From Burkholderiales bacterium (GTDB lineage Bacteria > Pseudomonadota > Gammaproteobacteria > Burkholderiales > Burkholderiaceae_C), in assembly GCA_947377275.1 (NCBI GenBank), contig CANCFV010000002.1:1-64000 (forward strand): a DNA stretch of 64,000 bases, given 5' to 3'. The notes below the pieces were generated by a model. That model was not told the DNA's origin. It did no database searches and saw only the letters and a program-made list of their open reading frames with translations. Positions 1-36,023 of this stretch are shown one piece after another (within the stretch, counting starts at the first letter, position 1; every line of letters starts with the position of its first letter). The position numbers and the translations under genes were made by a program.

Positions 1-1897
1 ACAACATCCGCCTGCTGCTGAGCCTGTTGAGGCTTTTTGTTGCCCATTTGCTGGCCATGACGCTGGCTTGGCCGGGGCAATCTGACGGTGACCACGGTTG
101 CCAGGTCGAACTGGCCGCAGCTTGAGTCAATTGTTCAGGGCGGACTAACGAGCCCTGGTTTAAATGTTGGAGCAGATGTTCTGAAAATTCCCGCCTTAGG
201 GGCACGACGACACCCAAGCGCCCCGGTAGACAAAACAAAACTGGTGAGAGCACGCTTTCAAGCCTGAGCAATGGGAGGTGTGTACGATTACCATCAGCGG
301 CATGCACTTCAATGTGTTGTTCGACCCCTCTGAACGTTGGCGGATCTACCGGCAGGCGAACGTCGCATGCAACAGCCAACGCTTCACGTTGCTGCTTCCA
401 ATTCATGTGCGTAATCACGCCATTGATAGCTACCTTCTGAAGCTGCGTATCAACCCCACGGCATCCCGTGAAACCGAGCGCAATCGCTTCCTCTTTAACA
501 GCCACCTGATGAGCAGGGAAATTCAAACGAATTAGCAAAACAGAGCTATGTCCAATTTGCCCATTTAGATTGCCCAGCATCAAGCGAACCGCATCAACAG
601 CCACCGGAGACGCCTCAGCAACGGCCATCAAGGCATTAATAGACGTTTGCGCCACAGCGCGGGTCCAGGCAACATATCCTATAAGCTCTAAATCATGCCG
701 GACCACATAACGATGGCACGCACGGCGGCTACCATCTACAGCCGCCCACTCACCCAACTGCTGGGCAGGGGATACGTTCAAAGTGGTTAATAACGCTCTC
801 ACTTCCATTTCATCAGCTTGAGTTGCCTCTTCAAAGGATAGAACGACTTGTTCCGGATCGGAGGTGTGAGCGACGGCATCTAGCCGAGGTGCGTCAGCAA
901 GTGTGAACGCTGCTGGCGATAGAACTTCAACCCCAAAGGTTTCACGGAGTAATGAGGCTGCCGCAAGCACGGATGAATCACTGGTCACTAGTCCACGCAA
1001 ACCATGACCGATCACAGTGCCCAAGTGCCGCAGGTCAGACACATCGTTTGAGGTAAGAGTACCTAGCCTATATCGCTCTGGAAAAACGACCGATCCTAAT
1101 TTTGCAGAGAGGCCTTCCCAAGCTGCATCTTCCGGAACCTTATATGTTGGCAGAATGCCGGCGAAATCCTGCATTGGGTCGGTCTTGCCGGAAGGGCAGG
1201 TTCTTTGGAGTTCCGCGAGGATCTCTGAGCTAATAGCCAAACTACATACCTGCATGCGCTCAGCTCGAAATACATTGGCGACGTCCTCGCGACGCTGCCT
1301 ACGAGGACCCAAATCGAACAGCACGTTCATATCCAGCAGATAAGTCGGCTTCTCGTTCACCGCCGCAAAATTGAATCCAAAAGGATTCGCCCCATCAATT
1401 CCGCTTCCTTCAAAAAGCTGAGGGGTTAACAACTCATGGCTTCTAACAACGATCATGCGTCGGCGACTCGCGCCGCCCTGGACAACACGTTGTGCGTAGA
1501 AAGCTTGGCGTTCCCAGAAAGCATGAGCTTCAATCATGTCCTCGCCGACTCTCGCGTAGATCGCGATGAACTGAAGCTCGGTCAAATAAGCCTTCAATTC
1601 GCCAACCAACTTAATGCCAATTTTCAATCGCCGATGCGGTGCCGAGACGTAGACCTGAAGAACCTTGGCCTTTGGATGCCGGAGATCAAACAACAAATGC
1701 CCGGCATACTCGCGATGTCCGTCAATTTCGACAACTGCAACAAAGAGATTGCCCTTTAAAGCGTATTCGCCATAAACTGAAGATGGCAGAAAACCCAATG
1801 TCTCCCGAGCTGAATCGGCGGCTTGCCGAACCGCCTCTACAAACGGCGCCACATCCTCATAGCGCTTCAAAACATTCAGGGGTGTCGAATGGGTCAT
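1..1897 (-). CDS. GNAT-PIN-GNAT-like fusion protein, partial (open at left edge; C-terminus possibly disrupted)
   Basis: Hand-translated from minus ATG at 1897: MTHSTPLNVLKRYEDVAPFVEAVRQAADSARETLGF...LFVAVVEIDGHREYAGHLLFDLRHPKAKVLQVYVSAPHRRLKIGIKLVGELKAYL...EAHAFWERQAFY (GNAT-like) then PTYLLDMNVLFDLGPRRQRREDVANVFRAERMQVCSLAISSEILAEL...LTSNDVSDLRHLGTVIGHGLRGLVTSDSSVL (PIN-like with D/E/D/D acidic residues). No stop for ~632 codons. Absent from ORF track because it has no stop inside the window. Confidence 0.8.
   Translation of the reverse strand, partial: MTHSTPLNVLKRYEDVAPFVEAVRQAADSARETLGFLPSSVYGEYALKGNLFVAVVEIDGHREYAGHLLFDLRHPKAKVLQVYVSAPHRRLKIGIKLVGELKAYLTELQFIAIYARVGEDMIEAHAFWERQAFYAQRVVQGGASRRRMIVVRSHELLTPQLFEGSGIDGANPFGFNFAAVNEKPTYLLDMNVLFDLGPRRQRREDVANVFRAERMQVCSLAISSEILAELQRTCPSGKTDPMQDFAGILPTYKVPEDAAWEGLSAKLGSVVFPERYRLGTLTSNDVSDLRHLGTVIGHGLRGLVTSDSSVLAAASLLRETFGVEVLSPAAFTLADAPRLDAVAHTSDPEQVVLSFEEATQADEMEVRALLTTLNVSPAQQLGEWAAVDGSRRACHRYVVRHDLELIGYVAWTRAVAQTSINALMAVAEASPVAVDAVRLMLGNLNGQIGHSSVLLIRLNFPAHQVAVKEEAIALGFTGCRGVDTQLQKVAINGVITHMNWKQQREALAVACDVRLPVDPPTFRGVEQHIEVHAADGNRTHLPLLRLESVLSPVLFCLPGRLGVVVPLRREFSEHLLQHLNQGSLVRPEQLTQAAASSTWQPWSPSDCPGQASVMASKWATKSLNRLSSRRML
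3..125 (+). other. possible C-terminal tail of a plus-strand ORF running off the left edge
   Basis: Open frame NIRLLLSLLRLFVAHLLAMTLAWPGQSDGDHGCQVELAAA* with local GC higher than the adjacent 150-2000 region; identity unknown. Confidence 0.25.
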
Positions 1898-2061
1898 TGA
1901 ACGTACATCGCATCCAATTGTGAATGGAGCAAATGTACGCCATGACCTAGCAGACCTTGGCTTCGGATGCGTGAAGACGCGACTCCTCTGACCTAAAAGA
2001 GGTGACCGTACAAGGTGGCGCTGAAAATGATCCACGCTTGAAGATGTCATGCTGCGCCATT

Positions 2062-2081
2062 TACTGTATGTTTATACAGTA
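2062..2081. promoter_or_regulatory. LexA (SOS) box
   Basis: TACTGTATGTTTATACAGTA: CTGT-N8-ACAG with extended TA...TA arms, palindromic, 20 bp. Confidence 0.85.
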
Positions 2082-35911: not shown

Positions 35912-36023
35912 TGACGCAAAACACCCGGATGCTCACTCAAGCATCGGATGGACAAGCCCTGAGGGGGCCGCAAGACTGGAGACAGTACTCTAAAAACAGA
36001 CAGTCGGGCGGCCGACGGACTGA

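Follow-up and report, generated by a model that had tools for sequence, protein, structure and literature searches.

An interrupted GNAT-PIN fusion gene at the contig end

The window, i.e., the whole stretch of 64,000 nucleotides that was analyzed, carries at its left end the terminal part of an insertion sequence (IS), an interrupted fusion gene, a leader region and a palindromic box. The features discussed below are the following:

1-147: end of a multi-copy IS with inverted repeat TAGTCCGCCCTGAACAA, interrupting the gene (9 further copies)
148-1897, minus strand: interrupted GNAT-PIN-GNAT-(EVE) gene, of which the 5' part (about 583 codons) is present (domains, fold matches, orthology)
1892-1947, minus strand: stem-loop that buries the start codon at 1897, with its foot at the 37-aa ORF's stop codon (folding)
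1898-2050, minus strand: upstream continuation of the fusion ORF in the same frame, with an ATG at 2050 (open frame)
1947-2060, minus strand: putative 37-aa ORF (ORF list; codon log-odds about 0)
2062-2081, minus strand: predicted LexA operator (SOS box), sense strand TACTGTATAAACATACAGTA (congener-motif score 28.7-29.7 bits)
2071-2076, minus strand: putative -10 element TATAAA inside the box (from sequence; also found in many congeneric lexA boxes)

The fusion ORF starts at 1897 on the minus strand, as stated in the first-pass annotation, and its product comprises, in order, a GNAT domain, a PIN domain and a second GNAT-like region. Acetyltransf_1 was found above its cut-off in the fusion protein and PIN_3 below its own (E 0.042 for the window copy, 0.00032 for an ortholog), while the presence of both GNAT and PIN in one protein is supported by the fold model and the GNAT fold matches. 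Orthologs of about 720-740 aa occur in Pandoraea (approximately 54-57% identical to the window protein), in five other genera of the family (301 genomes), on a Caulobacter plasmid and in viral contigs. Their C-terminal domain has a PUA/ASCH/EVE-like fold (matches to Zymomonas ASCH, Rpa0253 and THYN1; model confidence moderate) and, where checked, an ASCH gene directly follows the ortholog. This pair is labeled PDC-M11A/B by PADLOC, with a match of 1.1e-24 for the Pandoraea PDC-M11B. The fusion gene belongs to the described (PIN)-GNAT-EVE/ASCH family (PADLOC PDC-M11). The (PIN)-GNAT-EVE and ASCH arrangement was reported by Bell et al. (2020; PMC7641849); its predicted role is in toxin-antitoxin systems or defence, and it is experimentally uncharacterised. 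On one of the viral contigs (L069 4977-7585), the GNAT-PIN-GNAT-EVE and ASCH genes are carried as cargo between the head genes of a tailed prophage.

The first-pass annotation had missed that the window starts at a contig end inside a repeated IS and that the gene is truncated by it. Homology to the orthologs ends near residue 578 of the window protein, and nucleotides 1-147 have nine more genomic copies at 99-100% identity, nearly all located at contig ends (at least ten in all); the terminal inverted repeat is also present at a second kind of element end. With the IS junction taken as assembled, the gene is interrupted at 147/148, at about codon 583, and consequently the EVE-like domain has been removed, the window copy being cut before it. 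Neither the missing gene half nor the ASCH partner was found in 0.86 Mb of the genome's own contigs, and the window copy has presumably lost its function.

The GC content is approximately 51-52% up to about position 2250 and 64% beyond it. None of the 41 congeners searched has the fusion gene, and among 399 sampled genomes of the order it occurs in this one only. The low-GC segment from 1 to about 2250 is most probably acquired DNA. Searches for DNA relatives of the intergenic stretch returned none in plasmids or phages and only weak chance matches elsewhere. Repeated GGGTAAC motifs at the segment edge (2178-2199; TGAGGGTAAC, TGCGGGTAAC) resemble those near an integrase gene on another contig of this genome, C107, and are possible integrase arm sites. 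At the respective locus (L185 1-940), a gene for a tyrosine integrase adjoins the 3' end of the tmRNA gene, which probably marks an island inserted at ssrA. In a congener (L029), the tmRNA gene is the neighbor of the LysR gene that flanks the low-GC segment in the window. As for an island inserted at the 3' end of ssrA in the window itself, no tmRNA 3' repeat was visible near 2250-2340.

The palindromic box and the leader region

The 20-mer TACTGTATGTTTATACAGTA at 2062-2081 fits CTGT-N8-ACAG with TA flanks, in agreement with the first-pass annotation. The bare core is no evidence by itself, since its count in the window is at chance level (1 seen vs. 0.92 expected from shuffles); genome-wide, it occurs 32 times vs. 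21 for the reversed pattern. The extended form TACTGTN8ACAGTA (12 specified bases) was found at two places in the 3.81 Mb genome, with none for the reversed control. The other site lies in the imuA promoter, just upstream of imuA (L002), the adjacent protein, MSSLALSLPSHVARAVWRGL..., being one that we take to be ImuA. The imuA cassette (imuA-imuB-dnaE2) is described as persistently LexA-regulated wherever it is present (PMC3323433).

In 12 genomes of the same genus, 24 boxes were obtained from the DNA upstream of lexA, two before each lexA gene, and a 20-position matrix was built from the distinct congeneric lexA boxes and the recA box of this genome. The window box scored 29.7 bits and the genome's own imuA box 24.1 bits. 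In 4 Mb of first-order random sequence the best score was 21.0 bits, with no site at 26.7, i.e., within 3 bits of the box, and in 0.92 Mb of its own genome the window box ranks first, followed by imuA and recA. When recA was left out of the matrix, the scores were 28.7 bits for the window, 24.4 for a box on contig C24 (see below), 23.2 for imuA, 22.4 for the Escherichia coli consensus and 20.5 for recA. The palindrome at 2062-2081 conforms to the SOS box motif of the genus, and very probably this putative site is a genuine and strong LexA-type operator, as far as its sequence can tell. A search with the TIGR00498 profile gave no lexA match in the genome bin, which is 87% complete. Given that lexA is present in all 31 high-quality congeners, this is probably a gap in the bin; imuA and recA boxes do exist in this genome.

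The matrix is asymmetric, the A-rich strand of the box being the sense strand at lexA, recA and imuA promoters. The window box has the same polarity, scoring 29.7 bits on the minus strand vs. 13.2 bits on the plus strand, so that its sense strand reads leftward. A generic consensus scan revealed no full sigma-70 promoter and no good -35 element, and the position of a promoter at the box is one that we infer. There is a good case that leftward damage-induced transcription into the GNAT-PIN gene, as predicted from the sense-strand polarity and the inner TATAAA, is the best reading. Rightward transcription had also been considered possible, as the box is palindromic, but is disfavored by the two scores; to the right there is only the 3' end of the opposing LysR gene, and a rightward promoter was ruled out by the polarity and by the lack of a gene to drive.

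Concerning the leader region, the 37-aa ORF is indeed present at 2060-1947 on the minus strand. No family or phage match, no homolog and no Shine-Dalgarno sequence were found for it. The codon log-odds of both this ORF and the 51-codon extension of the fusion ORF are about 0, vs. 0.26-0.51 for gene segments (in-sample). The earlier suggestion of a leader peptide is accordingly left with a compatible hairpin geometry, as neither a coding signal nor a homolog came to light. Two further features had escaped the first-pass annotation. First, the fusion frame does not close at 1897 but continues to an ATG at 2050, which lies 11 bases from the box; the chance of this extension being open is 10%. A start at 2050 was rejected, as the 51-residue extension is not found in orthologs and has no coding signal, and the extension is probably leader rather than protein. 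Second, a hairpin spans 1947-1892 (-26.7 kcal/mol, z -6.4, 0/200 shuffles). In this single genome, a hairpin whose foot touches the stop codon of the short ORF would permit translational coupling, but a different type of DNA palindrome is an equally good interpretation; nothing comparable is present at the start codons of nine orthologs. The start at 1897 is buried in this hairpin and has no clear Shine-Dalgarno sequence, and therefore translation of the fusion gene may be weak. The possibility of the leader being a remnant of another SOS gene was also searched for and discarded, with no match in PHROGs, phages or plasmids.

Conservation of the box and its interpretation

Conservation of the box upstream of orthologs, which had been put forward as a check of damage induction, did not hold. 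All ten orthologs with readable upstream DNA (L003, L020-L024, L055, L069-L071) are devoid of it, the best site reaching 5.1 bits vs. 29.7 in the window, and homologs systematically lacking the box speak against it as a conserved trait. Judging from these ten orthologs, the box is restricted to this lineage or, at the least, to copies that are more than 59% identical, of which none was found.

It appears probable that a predicted LexA operator lies over the -10 element of a leftward, lineage-specific promoter preceding an acquired gene that is truncated by an IS. LexA would cover the -10 element and block the promoter. Upon DNA damage, RecA-stimulated self-cleavage of LexA would free it, and the transcript would consist of a leader of about 165 nt followed by the GNAT-PIN gene. 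The promoter would be part of the low-GC acquired segment and peculiar to this lineage, while the driven gene would formerly have been a (PIN)-GNAT-EVE defence or toxin-antitoxin-like cargo, now cut by the IS at about codon 583. At best, present-day induction would give rise to a shortened GNAT-PIN-GNAT protein that lacks the EVE-like nucleic-acid-binding domain. Both LexA binding and damage induction at the box are predictions of this reading from sequence. SOS induction of the fusion gene, as originally proposed, is thus retained with regard to a predicted LexA-type operator with leftward control (polarity, TATAAA) and is not supported with regard to a functional protein, as the copy is IS-truncated.

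A possible though rather doubtful alternative is that box and leader are relics of a different SOS gene that belonged to the mobile segment, and that a rearrangement joined them to the GNAT-PIN gene, LexA control then being accidental. In its favor, most orthologs show a purine-rich ribosome site adjacent to the ATG and no box, the upstream DNA here is unrelated to that of any ortholog, and the 5' leader looks non-coding; however, no remnant of an SOS protein is recognizable in 1898-2060.

It is unlikely that the leader acts as a switch in which the hairpin is opened, and the start at 1897 uncovered, by a ribosome that translates the 37-aa ORF and halts at 1947-1949, synthesis of the fusion protein thus being limited to conditions in which the SOS transcript is translated. 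The ORF begins right beside the box (ATG at 2060), its stop codon meets the base of a hairpin with a z of -6.4, and a similarly short spacing between box and ATG is seen at imuA and on C24 of the same genome. However, these observations come from one genome, where leader and hairpin have no conserved relative and the 37-aa ORF shows neither a coding signal nor a Shine-Dalgarno sequence. The more elaborate proposal, an SOS-controlled (PIN)-GNAT-EVE defence gene coupled by the hairpin to the 37-aa leader at the box, i.e., a two-step, damage-triggered switch of toxin-like cargo, is in our opinion quite improbable.

Binding of the box by a phage- or island-encoded LexA/CI-like repressor instead of the chromosomal LexA would agree with the mobile appearance of the segment and with lexA not being in the bin. 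We regard it as very unlikely, since centre and flanks of the box both agree with those of the genus' chromosomal lexA, recA and imuA boxes. Least credible is a functionless chance palindrome, as a bare core is expected about once per window but the random sequence contained no site within 3 bits, and both position and polarity fit a promoter.

Relation to known systems

The window box shares the palindrome, spacing, flanks and sense-strand polarity of the lexA, recA and imuA boxes of the genus, in line with beta-/gamma-proteobacterial LexA/SOS operators (PMC3323433). It differs from them in being lineage-specific and in its target, which is not a repair gene. The orthologs of the window gene share with the (PIN)-GNAT-EVE/PDC-M11 family, as outlined in the relevant portions of the respective study (PMC7641849), GNAT, PIN, a second GNAT-like region, a PUA/ASCH/EVE-like C-terminus and an adjacent ASCH gene. 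The window gene itself departs from the arrangement given there by an extra N-terminal GNAT before PIN and by the loss of the EVE part, and LexA control is not mentioned in those portions.

Toxin-antitoxin and mobile genes that are controlled by LexA are already known, including a putative SOS box at the IncC higBA (PMC8265657). The locus shares with LexA-controlled toxin-antitoxin genes (symER, hokE, yafN/yafO, tisAB/istR) an SOS box in front of a mobile module of toxin-antitoxin-like type, while its protein family differs and a toxin or antitoxin role of the window gene is putative only. If the preferred reading of a LexA-controlled leftward promoter is true, a (PIN)-GNAT-EVE gene is added to those brought under LexA control by mobile DNA. 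DNA damage would then be a simple inducer for studying this uncharacterised family, whose predicted role is in phage-host conflict or as a toxin-antitoxin system. The effect of the finding is limited, given that the box is private to the lineage and the gene is interrupted.

Two more LexA-like sites were observed in this genome. A weaker one in the window (35986-36005, TACTCTAAAAACAGACAGTC, 21.0 bits) lies between two minus-strand genes and points away from the nearer gene start. A second strong box, TGCTGTATAAATAGACAGTA, is located on contig C24 (16357-16376; L015 1499-1518) with approximately 24.3-24.4 bits. It directly abuts the ATG of a 100-aa ORF that has no Pfam match and is possibly an unknown SOS gene.
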